DNA from: Carboxylicivirga marina
GTDB lineage: Bacteria; Bacteroidota; Bacteroidia; Bacteroidales; Marinilabiliaceae
Length of the DNA stretch: 64,000 nucleotides
NCBI RefSeq assembly: GCF_016612505.1
Contig: NZ_JAENRR010000001.1
Location: forward strand, 1 to 64,000
Direction of reading: 5' to 3'
The notes under the pieces are model-generated. The model did not search any database, had not been told where the DNA came from, and saw only the letters and a program-made list of their open reading frames with translations. Shown one piece after another: positions 22,788-50,054 of the stretch. A program made the position numbers and the translations under genes. Numbering within the stretch: position 1 is the stretch's first letter; each line of letters opens with the position of its first letter.

Positions 22788-22887
22788 CTAAATAGGTTAA
22801 TTAAACTGCTCTGACAAAACGGATATTGAATACAAAAAGATGTATCGTCATGCATTTATTCCGAATGACACGAACAATTGAATCTCT

Positions 22888-23090
22888 TTGGCAGGTCTTC
22901 TGACTTATCCCACTGTAATCGCCTTCCCGTTCCCCAGAACAGTGGCTTTGTTGATTACAGCTTTACTTCGGTTTCACCGAATGGGACTTACAGCAGCGGA
23001 TACTGTCGCCGACTTTCACGGCGTTCCCTTTTCATCACTTAGCATTGAAAGATGCCTCGTGAACCAAATCGTTGGCAAAAGTAGTTGAAT
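22888..23090 (-). promoter_or_regulatory. Cobalamin (AdoCbl-type) riboswitch
   Basis: On the minus strand the hallmarks occur in order: GGGAACGCCGTGAAAGTCGG, the B12-box region CCGCTGCTGTAAG, GCCACTG, GGGAACGGGAAGGCG and the terminal GTCAGAAGACCTGCC. This matches the conserved core of cobalamin riboswitches. It ends about 100 nt before the btuB start and should shut off btuB and the two propeller genes when cobalamin binds. I see no clear terminator after it, so control is probably at translation initiation. Confidence 0.95.
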
Positions 23091-37967: not shown

Positions 37968-38055
37968 CTTCCCAACGTTTAATTAATACCCTGTTTCAAA
38001 GGGCTTTAATATAAAGGATGAATGTGGCTTTGTCAATTGAAGAAAAAATTGAGCT

Positions 38056-38083
38056 AAAAAAGAAACTCCCACCGAGGCGGGAG
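38056..38083 (-). terminator. Intrinsic terminator of tracrRNA
   Basis: CTCCCGCC pairs with GGTGGGAG (one G-U pair) in 38066-38083, followed on the minus strand by TTTCTTTTTT. Confidence 0.9.
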
Positions 38084-38151
38084 TATAGGATAAATTTCCT
38101 TCGGCATATAGCCTTATTGTGATAAGAATCTAATAAGCATTTTTTAAATTC
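38056..38151 (-). ncRNA. tracrRNA of the type II-C CRISPR system
   Basis: Read on the minus strand, the anti-repeat (38117-38139) contains TGCTTATTAGATTC, complementary to GAATCTAATAAGCA of the array repeat. After a 4/4 bulge (TTAT against GTTT) comes CACAA, complementary to TTGTG at the repeat's start. The nexus-like hairpin GGCTATATGCC (38103-38113) follows, then a final stem CTCCCGCCTCGGTGGGAG and a T-rich run. This gives lower stem, bulge, upper stem, nexus and terminator in the standard order. The 5' end at about 38151 is inferred from the promoter. Transcribed divergently from cas9. Confidence 0.93.
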
Positions 38152-38157
38152 TTATGT

Positions 38158-38188
38158 CAAAAATAAGAAAAGAAATTTAATATACAAA
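38158..38188 (-). promoter_or_regulatory. tracrRNA promoter
   Basis: On the minus strand TTTG (38188-38185) is followed after exactly 19 bp by TATTTTTG (38165-38158), a full match to TTTG-N19-TAnnTTTG. Transcription would start a few bases before the anti-repeat. Confidence 0.75.
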
Positions 38189-38309
38189 TCCCACTTACCA
38201 CAACTAAAGTCATTAACTTTGGAAAAGGGTAGCAAAATACCTACTTTTAGGTTTGATACTTATGACAAATAAAACTAGCACTCTTTAGCGTTATTAAAAC
38301 CCTAAGTAA

Positions 38310-41300
38310 ATGAGCAAAATACTAGGACTTGACCTTGGCACAAATAGTATTGGTTGGGCTGTGGTGGAAACAGAAGACAAATTAACTTTCAATCCCGTAG
38401 ATAAAGGCGTTAGGATATTCCAGGAAGGTGTTAAAATTGAAAAAGGCATTGAAGGGTCAAAAGCGGCAGAACGAACTGGCTATAGAAGCGCCAGACGTAT
38501 TAAATACAGACGAAAACTAAGGAAGTTAACAACGCTAAAAGCTTTAGTTAAATATCAGCTTTGCCCTACCCTCACCGAGCAAGAATTAAATACTTGGCGA
38601 TACGATAAAAAATACCCCAACAATGAAGCATTCAAGCATTGGTGGATGACGGATAATGAAGGGGATGAAAATGAGAAAAAAGCTCAAAAAAAGAATCCAT
38701 ATTACTTCCGTAATTTAGCAGCTACAGAAAAACTGGACTTAAACTGTGAAAATAATCGATTTGCACTTGGCCGTGCTTTCTACCACATGGCACAGCGCAG
38801 AGGTTTTTTAAGCAACCGCCTCGAAACAACAAAAGAAAATGAAAATGGTGCTGTGCTCTCTGGCATTAAAGAAATAGACGAGGCAAAAGGCAAAAAAACA
38901 CTCGGGCAATATTTTTACGAGCGATATACCAAAGGTGAAAAGATACGTGACCATTATCCACATCGCGACACCCATTACTTGGCAGAATTTAACCACATCT
39001 GTCAATTACAAGAATTAACTCAAGAACAAATTGATACGATACGCAAAGCTATCTTTTACCAACGACCGCTGAAATCGCAAAAAGGCCTAATCGGTAAATG
39101 CCCGTTTGAAACCAACAAACCACGTTGTGCTGTTTCACATCCCTTGTTTGAAGAGTATAGAATGCTTTGCTTTTTGAATAATATTAAAATTAAAACACCC
39201 AAAGATGAAAAGCTTCGCTTTTTAAATGAAGGCGAACGTGAAAAGGTTATACCTATGTTTTTCAGAAAAAGCAAAGAGCATTTTGACTTTGAGGACATAG
39301 CCAAACAGTTGGCACCTAAAAAACAATACAAATACTACAAATCGAGAGATAAAAATCCTGAAGACTCGTTGTTTAATTACAGCATGAAATCCACTGTTAG
39401 TGGCTGTCCTGTGTCAGCCAGGTTTAAATCTGTTTTTGGTGATAATTGGCTAAAACTATCTATTACGCATACCCGTTCTTCAGACAAGCAATTATCAACT
39501 ATTGACATTAGCGATGTTTGGCATGTATTAATGACCTTTGATTCGGATGACAAACTATTCGACTTTGCTAAAAACAAGCTTAATTTAAACGATGAGCAAA
39601 CCAAAGAGTTTGTCAACATTAAGTTAAAACAAGATTTTGCTTCATTGAGCCTTAAAGCAATTAAAAAGACGCTTCCCTATCTGCGTATGAATTTAATCTA
39701 TTCACACGCCATCTTTTTAGCTAATATGGGCGAAGTAGTTCCCCAAAGTATATGGCAAGACGATGAAAACAAAGCTATCATACGCAAAGCTATACATGAT
39801 ATAATTATTACTCAAAATGAGGAAAAGCAAATAATTGATATTGTTAATGGCTTTGTTAAGATTAACCATGAGAATGAATCAACGTGGAGCGAAGAGGCCA
39901 TTGATGCCTATAAAGCGGACTTGATTGACCGGATAAAAAACTATTATGGTGCAAATCGCTTTGCCACATTTAACGAAGAAAAAAAGCAACGAATTGAAAA
40001 ACATGCTTTTGAACTTTTAAAAAAGCAAATGCAACTTAATATGGGACGCGGCCAGTTTGCGCCTGTACAACGAATAGACGACCGAATAATCCAATTTCTG
40101 AACGACAATTTTGGAATAGTAAATAAGGAAAAACTATATCATCCTTCGGCTCTAGAGACGTATAAACCTGCTCAAAAAGGCAAAGATGGTAAATTGTATC
40201 TGGGCAGTCCTATGACCTCATCGGTGCGTAACCCGATGGCTATGCGAGCACTACACCAGCTTCGTAAGGTGATGAATGAGTTAATCAAAAATGACACCAT
40301 TGACGCCAATACAATCGTGCATATTGAAATGGCGCGCGACCTTATGAATGCCAACGAACGCAAGGCATTACAAAATTGGCAACGTAAACGCGAAAATGAA
40401 CGCAAAAAATATATTGCGGAGATTAAAACTCATTTTTCTTCTCAGGGTATTAATTCCGAACCAAATGACAGCGAAATACTCAAATACCAACTATGGGAAG
40501 AGCAGAAACATGTTTGTATCTACACCGGACAAACCATTGGTTTAAGTGATTTTTTAGGAGCTAATCCAAAATTTGACATCGAACACACCATCCCACAAAG
40601 TCTTTCGTTTGACAACTCACAAGCCAACCTTACTTTATGCTACAATGATTATAATCGTTCAGTAAAACGAAATAAAATACCATGCGAATTACCCGAACAT
40701 GAAGTGTTTACTGAGCGCATTGAACACTGGAAAAAGGCATACGAAGACCTGGATAAAAAAATACGTAAAGAAGTACGCAATGCCAGAGGTGCCTCAACCA
40801 AAGAAGCAAAAGATGGTGCTATAAAGCGTAGACACGAAGCTACTATTGAACGTGACTATTGGCGCGAAAAATACCAGCGTTTTATAATGAAAGATGTGCC
40901 AAGTGGGTTTAAAAACAGCCAACTGGTTGATATAGGAATTATAACTAAATACTCGCGCCTATACCTACAAACACTTTTCTCAAAAGTGTTTACTGTAAAA
41001 GGTGCTACAGTGGCGGATTTCAGAAAATTCTGGGGACTGCAGGATATTTATGAGAAAAAGGCACGAGTTAACCACGTGCACCATTGCATTGATGCCATGA
41101 CCATTGCATGTATGACAAAGCCTCAATACGATAAACTAGCCAAGTTTTATCACGACTGGGAAGGCTTAAGAGAAGATGGCCACGATAAAAAGCCAACCTT
41201 CGAAAAACCATGGCCAACTTTTACTGAAGATGTTAAGAATATAGAACATGAATTGTTTGTATCGCACTACACACCTGACAATCTGCCCAAAAATAATAAA

Positions 41301-42371
41301 AAGACACTGCGCAAAAGAGGCGTAATACAACGAGATAAAAACGGCAATCCTATTATCCAAACAGGTGACTCGGTTAGAGGCAGCCTACATAAAGAAACTT
41401 TTTACGGAGCAATCAAACAGAAGGTAGAAAATAAAAAAACAGGCCAGATTGAGGAAGTATGTAAATATGTTGTTCGCAAGAAGGTGGTCGATTTATCAGA
41501 TACTGACCTTAAAAATGTGGTGGATGAAAAGGTGCGTAACATACTAATTGAAGCACGTAAAGCTGAAAAAACACTGCAAAAAGAGATTGACAAGCTTGTT
41601 AAGCAAAAACAAAAAGCCGAAGAGCATGAAGAGCCACAGATAGAGCAAAATATTGCTAAGTTGAAAAAAGAGATTGAAAATCTTTATGCATTCCCTGCCA
41701 GCGGGGTACCAATTAAGAAAGTACGTTTACTGCAACCAACTGTTACCAACCCACTTGAAATAAAAGTGCAACGCGATAAGAGTACTAAAGCAATTCGTCC
41801 TCATAAGGAGAAGTACTATACGGCTAACGATGGGAATTACCTAATGGCCGTTTATGAGGGGAAAGATGTTAAGGGAAAGATTAAACGTGACTTTGAATTA
41901 ATTAATAACCTAACAGCAGCTGAATACTTTAAAAACTCCGTTCAATCAGTACTAAAACCACAAGGCATAGGGGTACTTGAAGGATTAATTCCTAAAGTCA
42001 AACAAAATGGCAAACTAGAGCTACTACACAAGGCGACAATAAAAATTGGCACAATGGTCATTCTTTGGGAGAAAACACCGGATGAAATTTGGGAATTGGA
42101 TAATGAACAAGTCAAAAAAAGATTGTATAAATTAGTGGGCTTAACAATTAATAGAATTAAATCAGGTCAGAAGTTTTATGAATTTGGCATGTGCATATTA
42201 AGACATCATCAAGAAGCTAACTCTGCAAGTGATCTTAAAACTCAGGATGGGATTTATAAATCTGATGAAGAATATGTTGCACAAAGGAAATTAAGTCACA
42301 ATCAATTCAACGCCCTTGTCGAAGGCATTGACTTCACCCTCTCCCCTCTCGGCAAAATTCAAAAACTATAA
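38310..42371 (+). CDS. cas9: Cas9, type II-C RNA-guided nuclease
   Basis: A 1,353-residue Cas9. RuvC-I is ILGLDLGTNSIGWAVV with Asp8. The arginine-rich bridge helix is RSARRIKYRRKLRKLT. RuvC-II is IVHIEMARDLM with Glu673. The HNH domain holds FDIEHTIPQSLSFDNSQANL with His759 and a later Asn-rich YNDYNRS. RuvC-III is VHHCIDAMTIACM with His925 and Asp928. All catalytic residues are present, so it should cut both strands. A coiled-coil-like stretch lies near residues 1075-1130. There is no csn2 or cas4, and the repeat and tracrRNA fit subtype II-C. Possible promoter: TTTG 38218-38221, 20 bp, TACTTTTA 38242-38249. Confidence 0.98.
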   Translation: MSKILGLDLGTNSIGWAVVETEDKLTFNPVDKGVRIFQEGVKIEKGIEGSKAAERTGYRSARRIKYRRKLRKLTTLKALVKYQLCPTLTEQELNTWRYDKKYPNNEAFKHWWMTDNEGDENEKKAQKKNPYYFRNLAATEKLDLNCENNRFALGRAFYHMAQRRGFLSNRLETTKENENGAVLSGIKEIDEAKGKKTLGQYFYERYTKGEKIRDHYPHRDTHYLAEFNHICQLQELTQEQIDTIRKAIFYQRPLKSQKGLIGKCPFETNKPRCAVSHPLFEEYRMLCFLNNIKIKTPKDEKLRFLNEGEREKVIPMFFRKSKEHFDFEDIAKQLAPKKQYKYYKSRDKNPEDSLFNYSMKSTVSGCPVSARFKSVFGDNWLKLSITHTRSSDKQLSTIDISDVWHVLMTFDSDDKLFDFAKNKLNLNDEQTKEFVNIKLKQDFASLSLKAIKKTLPYLRMNLIYSHAIFLANMGEVVPQSIWQDDENKAIIRKAIHDIIITQNEEKQIIDIVNGFVKINHENESTWSEEAIDAYKADLIDRIKNYYGANRFATFNEEKKQRIEKHAFELLKKQMQLNMGRGQFAPVQRIDDRIIQFLNDNFGIVNKEKLYHPSALETYKPAQKGKDGKLYLGSPMTSSVRNPMAMRALHQLRKVMNELIKNDTIDANTIVHIEMARDLMNANERKALQNWQRKRENERKKYIAEIKTHFSSQGINSEPNDSEILKYQLWEEQKHVCIYTGQTIGLSDFLGANPKFDIEHTIPQSLSFDNSQANLTLCYNDYNRSVKRNKIPCELPEHEVFTERIEHWKKAYEDLDKKIRKEVRNARGASTKEAKDGAIKRRHEATIERDYWREKYQRFIMKDVPSGFKNSQLVDIGIITKYSRLYLQTLFSKVFTVKGATVADFRKFWGLQDIYEKKARVNHVHHCIDAMTIACMTKPQYDKLAKFYHDWEGLREDGHDKKPTFEKPWPTFTEDVKNIEHELFVSHYTPDNLPKNNKKTLRKRGVIQRDKNGNPIIQTGDSVRGSLHKETFYGAIKQKVENKKTGQIEEVCKYVVRKKVVDLSDTDLKNVVDEKVRNILIEARKAEKTLQKEIDKLVKQKQKAEEHEEPQIEQNIAKLKKEIENLYAFPASGVPIKKVRLLQPTVTNPLEIKVQRDKSTKAIRPHKEKYYTANDGNYLMAVYEGKDVKGKIKRDFELINNLTAAEYFKNSVQSVLKPQGIGVLEGLIPKVKQNGKLELLHKATIKIGTMVILWEKTPDEIWELDNEQVKKRLYKLVGLTINRIKSGQKFYEFGMCILRHHQEANSASDLKTQDGIYKSDEEYVAQRKLSHNQFNALVEGIDFTLSPLGKIQKL

Positions 42372-42376
42372 ACTTT

Positions 42377-42413
42377 CATTCCACCACCTAATAAAGCCTT
42401 AGGTGGTGGAATG
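42377..42413. terminator. Hairpin between cas9 and the convergent gene
   Basis: CATTCCACCACCTAA (42377-42391) pairs perfectly with TTAGGTGGTGGAATG (42399-42413), 15 bp with a 7-nt loop. There is no strong T-run on either side, but the position between convergent stops suggests a bidirectional terminator. It would separate cas9 transcription from cas1. Confidence 0.7.
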
Positions 42414-42418
42414 ATAAA

Positions 42419-43072
42419 TTATTTAACCACAATACCCAGTTTTTCTAATAACTGAGGCTTTTCATTCAATGCAATTTTAGCAATTGATTCATAATCGTTA
42501 ACCCATTCGTTGAGTTCTTCTAATTTAGCATCACGTTCTTTGGTGGCATTTTGCGCATCACCCTTTTCTCGCATTATCACATCCGAATAATTTTCAACAC
42601 CCTGAATATCGGCTAAAACACTCTTTAGCATTTCTTCACCAGCATTATAATCGGCCATGGCCGCCAACCACTCGGCATTGGACAGTAAGTTGTTGTAAAA
42701 GGCACGCGAACGGGTAAACCATTCACTGTTGGTACGAGGCAAAGGTTTATTTAAAGCCAGTGCGGTTGATGCAGAAGGATTGCTTTTAAATACAATGCGT
42801 GCAACAGCCAGGTGCCCCTGAAATTTAAAGTTGGCCAAATCCTTGGCCTCATTGCGCTGTTCGTAGGCAGCATCAAGTTCTCCATACTCTTTAACAAATG
42901 TTTCATTCAGCGCGTTTGAGGCGTCTAAAATATTACGCCCCGCTTCAAGCCTCTCAGCTGTATAGCCAAACACTGAGACGGCCTCTTGAACTTTAGAGTC
43001 ATTTAATGAGTTGTTGATGCGTAAACCACATTGAAAAAGAAACTCTGCAATCGTTAATTTACTTCTGTTCAT
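42419..43072 (-). CDS. Unrecognised protein inserted between cas9 and cas1
   Basis: A 217-residue, mostly helical, soluble protein without signal or membrane segment. It starts MNRSKLTIAEFLFQCGLRIN and ends LLEKLGIVVK. I do not recognise a known domain; the style (alpha-helical, AEWLAAMADYNAGEEMLKSV) is like uncharacterised Bacteroidota proteins sometimes found in several copies per genome. It is read against the cas genes, so it is not part of the cas operon, and it is followed by 0.8 kb of non-coding DNA before cas1. An insertion is likely; an accessory or anti-CRISPR role is only speculation. Confidence 0.7.
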   Translation of the reverse strand: MNRSKLTIAEFLFQCGLRINNSLNDSKVQEAVSVFGYTAERLEAGRNILDASNALNETFVKEYGELDAAYEQRNEAKDLANFKFQGHLAVARIVFKSNPSASTALALNKPLPRTNSEWFTRSRAFYNNLLSNAEWLAAMADYNAGEEMLKSVLADIQGVENYSDVIMREKGDAQNATKERDAKLEELNEWVNDYESIAKIALNEKPQLLEKLGIVVK

Positions 43073-43890
43073 GGTAAAATGGTATAAAAGTTAAAAGTAT
43101 AATTGAATGCAACCGTTGCTGCATGATAGTAGTCAGATAACTGTAATCATTAAAATAAATAGCTTTTTGTAGGTAGCGAAATGCTATTACTAAAGGCGAA
43201 ACCCAATGTTTGGCAGCAGAAGTACGGATGTTTTCATACATAAGCTATTCGCTCTGAAACATTGGTGTTTCGCTGTAAAATCGAATCGTTCACTCAATCC
43301 CCGATCCCTTTTACAGGTGTCATATACTTTGGAAATTGCAAATAGTAGATTTCGCAGGCTGCAACCGTGGTTCGAAAGTTATAATTGGCTGTTCGCTATA
43401 TAAATTGCAAGGATAATTCTCATTCATATCTTTTCGCTTAATTCGACTTAAATAAGCGCTGACAAAACAACTGTTTTGTTGAATAAAATAGAATTTCGAC
43501 ATTACTAATGGGACTTTTTAGGTTAACTGGTTATTTTTTATCATCAGCAATAATAATATTTTAGTATGACTTACCCAAATTCAATTCGAATAAAGTTATA
43601 TGCGTATCAGTATGTAGTTTTCAAAAAAGATACAGCAAATCATACATCCCGAAACACAACCTAATTAGATAATTAACGAATAACCATGGAAGAATTACAT
43701 CGAAACAAGCAGAGATGAGTTAAACTTTAAAAGTTAAATTCAAAATAAAGGCATATGATTCAAATTCACTTACTGCACTTTTAAAACCTGTTAAATGATG
43801 TTCGCCCTCGTTTTCATCGCGTTCATCAACATAAGTAAACCCATCAACTACTTCCATCGAATAAGATAGTAATTACAAAACCTGCTAATC
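43073..43890. other. 818-bp non-coding stretch between cas9 side and cas1
   Basis: No credible gene is found. An imperfect inverted repeat, CGAAACCCAATGTTT (43197-43211) and AAACATTGGTGTTTCG (43257-43272), has a 45-nt loop and one bulge. The rest is AT-rich with many stops in all frames. It presumably holds the cas1-cas2 promoter and the promoter of the reversed gene, but I cannot place either with confidence. Confidence 0.5.
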
Positions 43891-44787
43891 ATGTTAAAAC
43901 GCACCCTGTTTTTTACTAATCCGGCTTACCTGTCTGTTCGCCAAAAACAACTTGTGGTTAAAACTAAAGATAGCGACACGGAGCGCTCTGTACCCATTGA
44001 AGACATTGGCATTGTAATATTAGAACATCCACAAATATCAATGACAATGCCTACACTACAGCAACTCAATACTAATAACGTGGCCGTTATTTTTTGCGAC
44101 GAAAAACACATGCCCGCATCTATGCTGCTCAACCTGGATGGGCACCATCTGCAGAACGAGATATTTCGTAAGCAGATTAATAGTAGCCAACCACTTAAAA
44201 AGCAATTGTGGCAGCAAACCATTGTAGCCAAAATAAAAAATCAGGCGGCTCTACTCAAATCAAAAAGCATTGACAGTGGCTCTTTAGTGTCTTTGGCATC
44301 ATCGGTTAAAAGTGATGACAGTACCAATCGCGAAGGTACAGCTGCCCGTGAATATTGGGGACGTTTATTTGACAATGACTTCACACGCGACCGTTATGGC
44401 GCCTATCCTAACAACCTGCTTAACTATGGCTACATCGTTTTGCGCTCAGCCGTAGCCCGCGCCTTAGTTGGTTCGGGGCTGCTACCTACACTGGGCATTC
44501 ACCATAGCAACCGTTACAATGCCTATTGCCTGGCTGATGATATTATGGAACCGTATCGCCCCTACGTGGATGATGTAATCTATGAAATGTGGCAATCAGG
44601 TAACGGTGAACTCATACTAGAAAAGGAAACCAAGGCTCACTTGTTGCAAGTGTTGAGTTGTGATGTTTCAATTGGTGAAGTTAAACGCCCGCTACTGCTA
44701 GCACTTTCGCACACAACTGCATCGTTGGCTCGCTGTTTTAATGGGGAAGGTAAAAAAATTCTTTACCCCACTTTTTTCAAAGAATAA
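43891..44787 (+). CDS. cas1: Cas1 integrase of type II-C system
   Basis: A 298-residue Cas1 that joins new spacers into the array together with Cas2. The N-terminal beta domain is followed by the all-helical catalytic domain. Metal ligands appear as Glu154 (AAREYWGRLF), His205 (LGIHHSNRYN) and Asp217 with Glu220 (LADDIMEPYRP). Length and motifs match type II Cas1. It is 11 bp before cas2, so the two are translated from one transcript, but it is separated from cas9 by an unrelated gene. Confidence 0.97.
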   Translation: MLKRTLFFTNPAYLSVRQKQLVVKTKDSDTERSVPIEDIGIVILEHPQISMTMPTLQQLNTNNVAVIFCDEKHMPASMLLNLDGHHLQNEIFRKQINSSQPLKKQLWQQTIVAKIKNQAALLKSKSIDSGSLVSLASSVKSDDSTNREGTAAREYWGRLFDNDFTRDRYGAYPNNLLNYGYIVLRSAVARALVGSGLLPTLGIHHSNRYNAYCLADDIMEPYRPYVDDVIYEMWQSGNGELILEKETKAHLLQVLSCDVSIGEVKRPLLLALSHTTASLARCFNGEGKKILYPTFFKE

Positions 44788-44798
44788 AAGCTCACTTA

Positions 44799-45137
44799 AT
44801 GGAACATTCCCGACTAAACGCTTATCAAATTATGTGGCTATTTGTATTTTTCGACTTGCCGGTTTCATCTAAAAAAGAACGTAAGCTGGCTACCCGTTTT
44901 CGAAAGGAGCTCATTAAAGATGGTTTTAATATGATGCAATGGAGTGTGTATACACGTCATTGTGCCAGTCGTGAAAGTGCCGATGTACATGAAAAACGCG
45001 TGAGGAGTTTTGTGCCCGACAAAGGGCAGATAACTATACTGCGTATCACCGATAAGCAATATGGCGGTATGATTAATATTTGGGGCGCTCAAATACAAGC
45101 TTCGGAAGAGACTCCTCAACAATTGGAACTGTTTTAA
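44799..45137 (+). CDS. cas2: Cas2, spacer acquisition protein
   Basis: A 112-residue Cas2 with the ferredoxin-like start MWLFVFFDLPVSSKKERKLA, where the Asp in FFDLP is the conserved acidic residue. Later come FRKELIKDGFNMMQWSVYTR and GQITILRITDKQYGGM, as in the longer Cas2 of type II systems. It bridges two Cas1 dimers. It lies 178 bp before the first repeat. Confidence 0.96.
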   Translation: MEHSRLNAYQIMWLFVFFDLPVSSKKERKLATRFRKELIKDGFNMMQWSVYTRHCASRESADVHEKRVRSFVPDKGQITILRITDKQYGGMINIWGAQIQASEETPQQLELF

Positions 45138-45315
45138 TAAGCACATCCATTTACGCAAAAGATTATACTCAAAAAAGATTAGTACATTTACATCTCGCTC
45201 TTTGACGTCCTGAAAAAAATACCACATAATTTAGGTTCGAACACTCTTCCGTGTTAATTTTTTCAATAGAAAAACAAGCTACATACACCGTAAATACTGA
45301 GCTGTATGGCGCGCG
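45138..45315 (+). promoter_or_regulatory. CRISPR leader
   Basis: This AT-rich 178-bp stretch between cas2 and the first repeat is the probable leader, because crRNA reads rightward. A loose promoter match is TTTG at about 45205-45208 and TAATTTAG after 22 bp, which is longer than the usual spacing. New spacers would be expected at this end. Confidence 0.55.
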
Positions 45316-46800
45316 GTTGTGGTTTGAATCTAATAAGCAATAAGATATACCTCATCAAATCTGGCTAGTCTTATTACATTGTTGTGGTTTGAATCTAATA
45401 AGCAATAAGATATACCCAAGTATGGCATCACCTAAAGTTGCACCTGTTGTGGTTTGAATCTAATAAGCAATAAGATATACCAATCCCTATCGTAAAGCCT
45501 TCACTTGTCGTGTTGTGGTTTGAATCTAATAAGCAATAAGATATACCATATAACAGGCGATACAACCGTAAGAAGAAGTTGTGGTTTGAATCTAATAAGC
45601 AATAAGATATACCGCACAATGAAATGAAAAGGCTAACTGGAGAGTTGTGGTTTGAATCTAATAAGCAATAAGATATACCTCAATGAAGATACTAAATTCC
45701 TGCCGCTAAGTTGTGGTTTGAATCTAATAAGCAATAAGATATACCTCCATTCTGCACCGTGTCCATCATCATCAAGTTGTGGTTTGAATCTAATAAGCAA
45801 TAAGATATACCGTATTATCTTTTTTCAATTTACAAACTTTAGTTGTGGTTTGAATCTAATAAGCAATAAGATATACCAAACAACTTTAGGATTATAGATA
45901 TGTCCGAGTTGTGGTTTGAATCTAATAAGCAATAAGATATACCATGATTATGACAGAACTAGAGGGATGGCTAGTTGTGGTTTGAATCTAATAAGCAATA
46001 AGATATACCTAAGTATCTTGAAAAAGATTTGGAAATTCAGTTGTGGTTTGAATCTAATAAGCAATAAGATATACCAAATTGACACGACATCTTTACCTCA
46101 TGACCGTTGTGGTTTGAATCTAATAAGCAATAAGATATACCCTATAGGAACTATTATATATCACAGGGTAAGTTGTGGTTTGAATCTAATAAGCAATAAG
46201 ATATACCCTTTTCTTTACTTTCTACAAGTATTTCATGGTTGTGGTTTGAATCTAATAAGCAATAAGATATACCCTATAGGAACTATTATATATCACAGGG
46301 TAAGTTGTGGTTTGAATCTAATAAGCAATAAGATATACCTTGTGGTTGAGCCATCGGTACGCCACGAAGTTGTGGTTTGAATCTAATAAGCAATAAGATA
46401 TACCGACAACAGCGAACTCTCTCGTCGACTCAGGGTTGTGGTTTGAATCTAATAAGCAATAAGATATACCCCATCGTCGCTGCTAGTGGATTAACACTAA
46501 GTTGTGGTTTGAATCTAATAAGCAATAAGATATACCGATGACAAAAAAAAGAAGCCGATCAAAGAAGTTGTGGTTTGAATCTAATAAGCAATAAGATATA
46601 CCTTCCCAATTCCCCCCAAAGAAGCCACCACAGTTGTGGTTTGAATCTAATAAGCAATAAGATATACCGGTCGTAACATTGAAGTGAACACCATATCAGT
46701 TGTGGTTTGAATCTAATAAGCAATAAGATATACCGACTTCTCAATGGTGAAAGTGGTGTTTACAGTTGTGGTTTGAATCTAATAAGCAATAAGATATACC
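45316..46800 (+). CRISPR. CRISPR array, 23 repeats of 36 bp, 22 spacers
   Basis: The repeat begins GTTGTGGTTTGAATCTAATA and ends AGCAATAAGATATACC. I placed 23 copies, first at 45316, last at 46765, all apparently identical. Spacers are 29 or 30 bp. Complementarity with the tracrRNA fixes the crRNA strand as plus (spacer then repeat). Spacers 13 (46142-46171) and 15 (46274-46303) are identical. The absence of a degenerate terminal repeat suggests the distal end was trimmed by recombination; the array runs straight into a gene stump. Several open frames drawn across this region are repeat artefacts. Confidence 0.99.
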
Positions 46801-47051
46801 AAGCAGTTGGCAACACCATCGGTTTGGCATACGGTTCTGCGGTGATGTTACAAAAAGTAGAAGAAGGGCACCTCAAGCCCAAGGAATGTGACTTACTTAA
46901 TCACCACCTGGCTATTTCCCATTCACAGCTGGAAGACCCATTGCTATTTGTCAGCCTGGGCTATTCGATGCCCGTATTAATCATTCCAAGGGTATTATTT
47001 GCCATTGTGGTGGTATGGATCAGGCGTATTGAGTATCACATTAAAGATTAA
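46801..47051 (+). pseudogene. 3' stump of a nucleoside-recognition (Gate) membrane protein gene
   Basis: Immediately after the last repeat, about 83 codons read AVGNTIGLAYGSAVMLQKVE and later NHHLAISHSQLEDPLLFV, then a hydrophobic segment (VLIIPRVLFAIVVVWIRRI) and a stop. The HH-x-SHS-LEDPLL segment is the kind seen in nucleoside-recognition/Gate-domain membrane proteins of about 300 residues. No start codon or upstream part exists, since the CRISPR repeat takes its place. I read it as the C-terminal remnant of a gene cut by the array or by a deletion that joined the two. Confidence 0.7.
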
Positions 47052-49205: not shown

Positions 49206-50054
49206 ATGCATACTAAGCCTATTTCTAATTATCTGATACAAAAAGCTTCGGGCGAACAAGTTTATTTCGAAGGCCATAAACTAGTGGATTCACTAATCCG
49301 TTCAGGTGCAAAAGAGGAATTGGCAAAACAAATACTACAGGCCATCAGTATGGAATTGCACGATGGCATGCTGACCAGCGACATCTATACCAAGGCCTAC
49401 CGCATGCTACAAAAACAAGAGCGAAAAACGGCGGTTAACTACCGACTAAAGCAGGCTGTGTTGCAGCTGGGACCTTCTGGCTATCCCTTTGAACATTTTA
49501 TAGGTGAATTATTTAAAGCACGTGGTTTTAGTGTTGAAGTGGGCAAGCTGGTAAACGGTTATAGTGTACGCCATGAAATTGACGTGCTTGCAAAAACGGA
49601 GCATAAACACATCTTTGTCGAGTGTAAATTTCATAATTATCAGGGTACCAAGACCAATGTAAAAGTACCCATGTATATCCGTTCGCGATTTGACGATCTA
49701 AACCGGGTTCGTCATTTTGACGATGAATTAAAAAATACCAATACCCAAGGCTGGATTGTCACCAACACTCGCTTTACCGAGGATGCCATTAAATTTGGTC
49801 GCGATTACGGCTTAACACTTTTAAGCTGGGATTATCCCGAGAAAGGGAACCTCAAAAACTGGATTGAATTGGAAAACCTTCACCCCATTACCTGTTTGTC
49901 ATCCATCACCCTTAAGGAGAAAAAAGCGTTATTGGGCAAAGGCATTGTGATGTGTCATGATCTTTACAAAAAAGCAACGCAAAAAGAATCACTTCCTATT
50001 AAACCACGGAACCTGAGAGCAGTAAAAAGAGAGCTTAGGGATTTTATTGAATAG
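49206..50054 (+). CDS. ATP-cone/Mrr-type restriction endonuclease-like protein
   Basis: A 282-residue protein with two parts. Residues 1-90 form an ATP-cone-like domain (YLIQKASGEQVYFEGHKLVD, SDIYTKAYRMLQKQE). From about 95 an Mrr-like PD-(D/E)XK nuclease fold follows: GYPFEHFIGELFKARGFSVE, then the active-site series RHEIDVLAKTEHKHIFVECK with Asp and Glu-x-Lys. Such fusions are seen in Bacteroidota and may be nucleotide-sensing nucleases. It lies beyond the CRISPR array in the accessory stretch, so a defence role is possible. The ATP-cone is otherwise best known from ribonucleotide reductases. Confidence 0.83.
   Translation: MHTKPISNYLIQKASGEQVYFEGHKLVDSLIRSGAKEELAKQILQAISMELHDGMLTSDIYTKAYRMLQKQERKTAVNYRLKQAVLQLGPSGYPFEHFIGELFKARGFSVEVGKLVNGYSVRHEIDVLAKTEHKHIFVECKFHNYQGTKTNVKVPMYIRSRFDDLNRVRHFDDELKNTNTQGWIVTNTRFTEDAIKFGRDYGLTLLSWDYPEKGNLKNWIELENLHPITCLSSITLKEKKALLGKGIVMCHDLYKKATQKESLPIKPRNLRAVKRELRDFIE

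Follow-up and report, generated by a model that had tools for sequence, protein, structure and literature searches.

A type II-C CRISPR-Cas locus of Carboxylicivirga marina: a known kind of system with an under-described array polarity and a candidate accessory gene

Between positions 38,055 and 46,800 of a 64,000-nucleotide stretch of the Carboxylicivirga marina genome (assembly GCF_016612505.1, contig NZ_JAENRR010000001.1, positions 1 to 64,000; hereafter the window), the genes cas9, cas1 and cas2 lie together with a trans-activating CRISPR RNA (tracrRNA), its promoter and terminator, and a 23-copy array of clustered regularly interspaced short palindromic repeats (CRISPR). Judged by its genes and RNA parts, the system is of type II-C and complete. 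It is a genuine example of a familiar kind of locus, one whose array polarity is under-described and which has a candidate accessory gene between cas9 and cas1. The features are as follows.

38055-38151 (ends approximate), minus strand: tracrRNA, with anti-repeat, nexus hairpin, second hairpin, terminator stem and T-rich tail
38188-38158, minus strand: tracrRNA promoter of Bacteroidota type, TTTG-N19-TATTTTTG
38310-42371, plus strand: cas9, 1353 amino acids (aa), TIGR01865 E 7e-137
42376-42414, no strand: perfect 16-bp inverted repeat where cas9 and the PQLLE gene converge
42419-43072, minus strand: PQLLE-family gene (NF052641), 217 aa, between cas9 and cas1; candidate accessory of the locus
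43891-44787, plus strand: cas1, type II, 298 aa, TIGR03639 E 8e-91
44799-45137, plus strand: cas2, 112 aa, E 3e-21
45187-45315, plus strand: putative leader, conserved in six aligned loci and adjoining the 5' end of the first repeat
45316-46800, plus strand: CRISPR array, 23 exact copies of a 36-bp repeat with 22 spacers, each 29-30 bp long

The original prediction had called this a complete type II-C system, and the nuclease residues of Cas9, the type II cas1, cas2, the paired tracrRNA and the array bear it out. Residues D8, E673, E758, H759, N782, H925 and D928, which we take to be the catalytic positions from the motifs of SpCas9, are all present and invariant in a six-sequence alignment of Cas9 relatives. 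Matches to curated models, a terminator search and a repeat count likewise account for cas1, cas2, the tracrRNA with its promoter and terminator, and all 23 repeats, against a chance expectation of 0 exact copies. Neither csn2 nor cas4 was matched among the eight open reading frames scanned between 37071 and 50054. A gene for RNase III is found elsewhere in the genome. The array is the only one with this repeat: the first 23 bases of the repeat, at up to two mismatches, have no other copy in the 5.65-Mb genome.

The locus probably works as a CRISPR-Cas9 immune system. Following established type II biology, the tracrRNA would pair with the array repeats, RNase III would cut the resulting duplex, and Cas9 would cut DNA matching the spacers. 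Cas1-Cas2 would insert new spacers at the array end facing cas2. In the sense of the CRISPR RNAs (crRNAs) this is the 5' end, and the crRNAs would be read away from the leader. In type II-A, crRNAs are read in this same direction. Weighing against this reading, no spacer has a credible target in the searches made. A search with the whole array in 50,697 phage records and in 72,556 plasmid records returned one chance-level hit each (E 2 and 1), and the 3' 19-20 bases of four of the 21 different spacers had no exact match in IMG/VR. Since these searches found no protospacer, no protospacer-adjacent motif (PAM) was derived.

Two features of the array itself stand out. Spacers 13 and 15 (46142-46171 and 46274-46303) are identical, with a different spacer between them, which may point to recombination inside the array. 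At its far end the array abuts, at 46800-47051 on the plus strand, a gene of which only the last 83 codons are left, compared with 310-328 codons in the open frames of its relatives; the missing first part suggests a deletion or rearrangement at this end.

To place the locus among its relatives, we use the best 80 of 475 confirmed stretches encoding Cas9 relatives from a genome scan; these loci were chosen by likeness to the window Cas9 and are not representative of all Bacteroidota. The closest Cas9 is that of Carboxylicivirga sediminis (78% identity), followed by a Saccharicrinis metagenome-assembled genome (73%) and Plebeiobacterium marinum (67%), and identities reach down to about 39%. These numbers speak against a less sampled branch. 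C. sediminis JR1 (L051) and other Marinilabiliaceae II-C loci share the window's repeat type, tracrRNA, leader, gene order and PQLLE gene. Unlike the window, L051 has its PQLLE gene on the same strand as cas9, with a transposase gene of the repetitive extragenic palindrome (REP) type behind it, and has a degenerate repeat at the end of its array.

The repeat length, thought unusual by the original prediction, turns out to be the rule for this branch: among the best 80, 45 of the 48 loci with an array of at least five copies have a 36-bp repeat. The other three (26, 27 and 37 bp in L073, L084 and L112) probably reflect trimming or over-extension by the repeat finder. The window Cas9 thus groups with 36-bp homologues, most of them sequenced rather than well studied. 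The repeats of 46-47 bp that the original prediction gives for most Bacteroidota II-C systems do exist in other loci, such as L050 of the same family (46 bp) and, according to the sections of PMC5608340 consulted, Prevotella intermedia (47 bp), but they do not describe the window's branch. In line with this, an excerpt of PMC8092290 gives II-C repeats in species other than Flavobacterium columnare as "on average 11 bp longer" than those of type VI-B.

Upstream of cas9, on the opposite strand and pointing away from it, is the tracrRNA, with the anti-repeat at 38117-38139 (minus strand). Its pairing with the repeat, described as 14 bp, an internal loop and 5 bp, is correct, and allowing G-U pairs turns the fold into 14 bp, a 2x2 loop and 8 bp. 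A terminator stem was found at 38084-38065, against a mean of 0.1 in shuffled sequences. The promoter pattern TTTG-N19-TATTTTTG is not rare by itself, with three matches in the window against 2.66 expected. The Bacteroidota -7 box TAnnTTTG, however, occurs at most 70 nt before the anti-repeat in nine of 11 loci, a result reached in none of 2000 mononucleotide shuffles. These 11 loci are the window and ten with a clear anti-repeat, out of 18 searched; the remaining ones gave no convincing anti-repeat, and often their own repeat is not known.

The tracrRNA tail (AAGGC, loop, GCCG, second hairpin and a ACTCCCGC-type terminator) recurs in all 11 aligned loci, with changes on both sides at five of the 15 predicted pairs, and it varies little between the window, Flavobacterium (L095), Gelidibacter (L087) and L048. 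The II-C loci of Flavobacterium, which have been studied in F. columnare and F. psychrophilum, share cas9, cas1 and cas2 with the window, and in L095 the tracrRNA likewise lies upstream of cas9 and the 36-bp repeat starts GTTGTGGTTTGA. At gathering cut-offs, Rfam gives no tracrRNA match. Because its tail is conserved in 11 loci and the TAnnTTTG box is present in nine of them, we regard the window's tracrRNA, on the strength of these alignments, as standard for its group and not divergent as had been proposed. The original prediction is a sound annotation whose interpretation was over-read.

The anti-repeat sets the crRNA strand, with the GTTGTG end of the repeat following the spacer, and it does so independently of repeat decay. 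This means that the question of array polarity is directly testable in these loci. Oriented in this way, the arrays are of two kinds: those with cas2 at the 5' (crRNA-sense) end, to which the window belongs, and those with cas2 at the 3' end, found in Flavobacteriaceae and several others. Among 24 arrays of the former kind that are complete at both ends, the 3' copy of the repeat is more degenerate in 16 and the 5' copy in none, with eight ties. The bias is opposite in 19 such arrays of the latter kind (3' copy in one, 5' copy in eight, ten ties). With ties left out, Fisher's test gives p 8e-6, although the arrays share ancestry and are not independent. On a Cas1 tree of 67 rows, 52 of them labelled, the cas2 side changes three times, against a mean of 17.2 after shuffling. 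A single clade for the 3' kind is rejected on this tree, as expected from the placement of L085 and L092 within the 5' kind. The array of L050, which is cut at one end, stands outside the degeneracy tally, and its label on the Cas1 tree was set by hand.

The flanks of the arrays were compared in the same way. A stretch of some 130 bp that precedes the first repeat of the window is conserved in six aligned loci. Over 200 bp, mean identity is 59.3% on the cas2 side (six loci) versus 41.5% on the other side (the four loci not cut there). Between the window and C. sediminis, the local score is 116 on the cas2 side and 15 on the other, where the 99% point of shuffled sequences is 21. In 11 pairs of the 5' kind that share no locus, the 5' flank scores better in eight, the 3' flank in two, and one is a tie, with several of these scores below the shuffled 99% point of 21. 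For the 3' kind, the 3' flank is better in six of eight pairs sharing no locus, and in 77 versus 15 of 92 pairs overall. Based on these comparisons, the leader seems to lie beside cas2 in both kinds, with the repeats pointing opposite ways.

The window's array therefore seems, on these comparative grounds, to grow at the opposite end from its best-studied relatives. In excerpts of PMC8092290, F. columnare II-C is described as acquiring spacers at the variable end of the array and as being transcribed towards that end, where the leader lies, with base 36 of the repeat leader-proximal; the window's array would be read away from its leader. The parts of PMC12814883 and PMC12638026 consulted call acquisition at the 3' end a II-C trait and note that orientation programs disagree, and one of the two proposes subgroups with different acquisition ends. 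A limited search of the open-licence literature returned no paper naming the two polarity groups.

If the window's array followed this described rule, spacers would enter at its 3' end, and the degenerate 3' repeats of its relatives would have arisen in some other way. Such acquisition has been reported for II-C in several species in the portions of PMC8092290, PMC12814883 and PMC12638026 mentioned above. Several points weigh in this direction and against growth at the cas2 side. Both end repeats of the window's own array are perfect, so that it counts as a tie and its polarity rests on relatives and on the leader. When every pair of the 5' kind with a Cas1 likeness of 55% or more is counted (179 pairs), the flanks show no side preference (5' flank better in 86, 3' flank in 81, 12 ties), the flank signal in this kind being confined to close pairs. 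L092, with cas2 at the 3' end, also has its degenerate copy at the 3' end. Counting against 3' acquisition are the 16 to none bias of the degenerate repeats in the window's kind and its reversal in the other, the conserved stretch on the cas2 side, and the remainder of a truncated gene on the window array's 3' side. No spacers are common to different arrays, and spacer order is thus unusable as a direct test. Taken together, we consider it quite likely that the locus is a type II-C system whose array grows at the cas2-side (5') end, and improbable that it follows the 3'-end rule. The distinction matters, as polarity decides the order of the spacers, the side of the PAM and which spacers are read as old or new.

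The second subject is the 217-aa gene at 42419-43072 (minus strand), which the original prediction had passed over. Its product matches NF052641 with 230.9 bits, well over the curated cut-off of 80, and belongs to this PQLLE family. The model name holds no function for the family, and no paper with the term "PQLLE family" was found in the open-licence literature searched. The protein is predicted with confidence to be all-helical (predicted local distance difference test score of 93). Its predicted structure has no match in the PDB or among viral models at E 0.001, nor any PDB match below E 0.07, and its sequence matches no Pfam family, and therefore no PIN domain, at E up to 1. Considered as a phage or plasmid gene, it yielded no match.

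Ten further loci carry a gene of this family (L047, L048, L049, L051, L052, L053, L054, L064, L073 and L074, of which L047 and L064 belong to one genome). It sits in the interval from cas9 to cas1 or, in loci cut short by the end of the contig, directly behind cas9. In a tree of 62 copies, made up of the CRISPR-located ones and those in 40 selected regions, 13 copies lie near cas genes and 49 do not. Eleven CRISPR-located copies and two solitary ones form one clade (Shimodaira-Hasegawa-like approximate likelihood ratio 98), and the CRISPR-located copies of L050 and L055 fall outside it. CRISPR location changes four times on this tree, compared with 12.1 in shuffles, and among the copies examined it is only in this one clade that the family is regularly found in CRISPR loci.

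In 71 genomes of the family Marinilabiliaceae, the nine copies at E up to 1e-100 all lie beside cas9 and the next seven have no cas gene within 1.5 kb; this split is circular, as those nine are, or probably are, rows of the search model, and the claim rests on the PQLLE tree. In a wider survey of 393 genomes from the order, a match at 1e-60 was found only in the window's own. In two other loci (L057 4861-5559 and L082 14844-15530), a DUF6261 gene takes the place of PQLLE between cas9 and cas1. The PQLLE and DUF6261 proteins show no profile similarity in a comparison with only two rows on one side.

Is this gene then a resident of the locus? It may be a passenger instead: the family is dispersed and multi-copy, and one member could at some time have inserted between cas9 and cas1 without any part in CRISPR. 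A genome can hold several copies, with six matches in that of the window, most tree copies lie away from cas genes, and the gene in the window faces the other way from cas9, while all ten related loci have it on the cas9 strand. Two copies of the CRISPR clade (G011 and G013; L154 9945-10685 and L155 4602-5267) have no cas gene nearby, and their genomes, of the same genus, give no Cas9 match at E 1e-20; they are either relics of lost loci or independent copies. The orientation in the window and these two solitary copies also speak against an accessory role. Against a passenger stand the open frame kept in 11 CRISPR loci of ten genomes with two far-apart kinds of Cas9, and the 41 residues invariant across the 11 CRISPR-located sequences. 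We regard the passenger explanation as almost an even call, and an accessory of the locus as a serious reading that we hold tentatively, as somewhat less probable than its negation.

In another scenario, the protein is a partner of Cas9 that boosts cutting, as PcrIIC1 does for CbCas9 of Chryseobacterium, a system that shares with the window a II-C Cas9 and an extra gene in the locus. Accessory genes in some II-C loci are indeed described in the parts of PMC13153721 and PMC12669027 consulted. However, an excerpt of PMC13153721 annotates PcrIIC1 as a PIN-domain protein, and PQLLE shows neither a PIN match (Pfam, E up to 1) nor a fold match at E 0.001. PQLLE also accompanies two kinds of Cas9 only about 34% alike. 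Its divergence tracks that of cas1 in seven loci (r 0.59, 11 of 5040 permutations) better than that of cas9 (r -0.21, 3425 of 5040). We think a Cas9 partner unlikely.

On a Cas9 tree (FastTree, long branches), the PQLLE loci fall in several places, with six changes in the full set and five once 12 rows are set aside because their contigs stop directly behind cas9, too soon to judge PQLLE presence. Of the seven Cas1 sequences from PQLLE loci that are long enough for the tree, six form one clade. The contrast between the two correlations is largely due to L048, which weakens the case for a tie to cas1: without this locus, r is 0.66 for PQLLE and cas1, 0.51 for PQLLE and cas9, and 0.85 for cas1 and cas9. 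If PQLLE is a resident accessory, cas1-cas2, the adaptation module, is its more likely partner, ahead of any single Cas9. Its having an adaptation role is a guess, and a passenger is about as likely. Even so, the gene offers a named, testable accessory candidate in a subtype defined by cas9, cas1 and cas2 alone, and both it and the polarity class deserve follow-up.

L048 has a repeat and a tracrRNA near-identical to the window's, the leader and PQLLE gene as well, and a Cas1 75% identical to the window's. Its Cas9, in contrast, has 1524 aa, belongs to another lineage and is 34% identical to that of the window. From this comparison, we infer that cas9 was exchanged at L048 and that PQLLE stayed beside cas1. 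This agrees with the shuffling of Cas9 in situ that PMC12669027, in the part consulted, reports for Flavobacteriales.

In many relatives, genes resembling REP-associated tyrosine transposases, below the NCBIfam cut-off, lie beside cas9 or before cas1. Examples are L051 15336-15935, L048 3339-3962, L052 13814-14431, L055 14058-14666, L057 5577-6230 and L080 4556-5191, among others. Across the 80 loci, there are 15 hits in 189 kb near cas genes versus one in 801 kb of flanks, a contrast that may be inflated, as the search model was built from such copies; the lone flank hit is probably one part of a gene that is split in L054. Placed where cas9 meets the adaptation genes, these transposases may aid the exchange of cas9. 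The window's locus has no REP-type transposase, and its cas9-cas1 gap holds no remnant beyond chance.

A wider scheme would join the two subjects. Type II-C would comprise two lineages of opposite integration polarity set by Cas1-Cas2, with the leader beside cas2 in both but the repeats inserted in opposite orientation. New spacers would then enter at the 5' end of crRNA transcripts in the lineage of the window, and at their 3' end in the second lineage. In some members of the former, the PQLLE protein would in addition have joined the adaptation module and would serve spacer acquisition, as Csn2 does in II-A and Cas4 in II-B. This combined scheme is speculative and, as a whole, doubtful.

The remaining observations concern the surroundings. 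The perfect 16-bp inverted repeat at 42376-42414 is probably a two-way terminator of the convergent genes on either side. Between the PQLLE gene and cas1, about 800 bp (43073-43890) hold no open reading frame of at least 80 codons. Beyond the array, a gene at 49206-50054 on the plus strand encodes an Mrr-type restriction endonuclease domain (PF04471) and is a possible second defence gene. Farther away, at 22873-23083 on the minus strand, the window carries a cobalamin riboswitch (88.1 bits).

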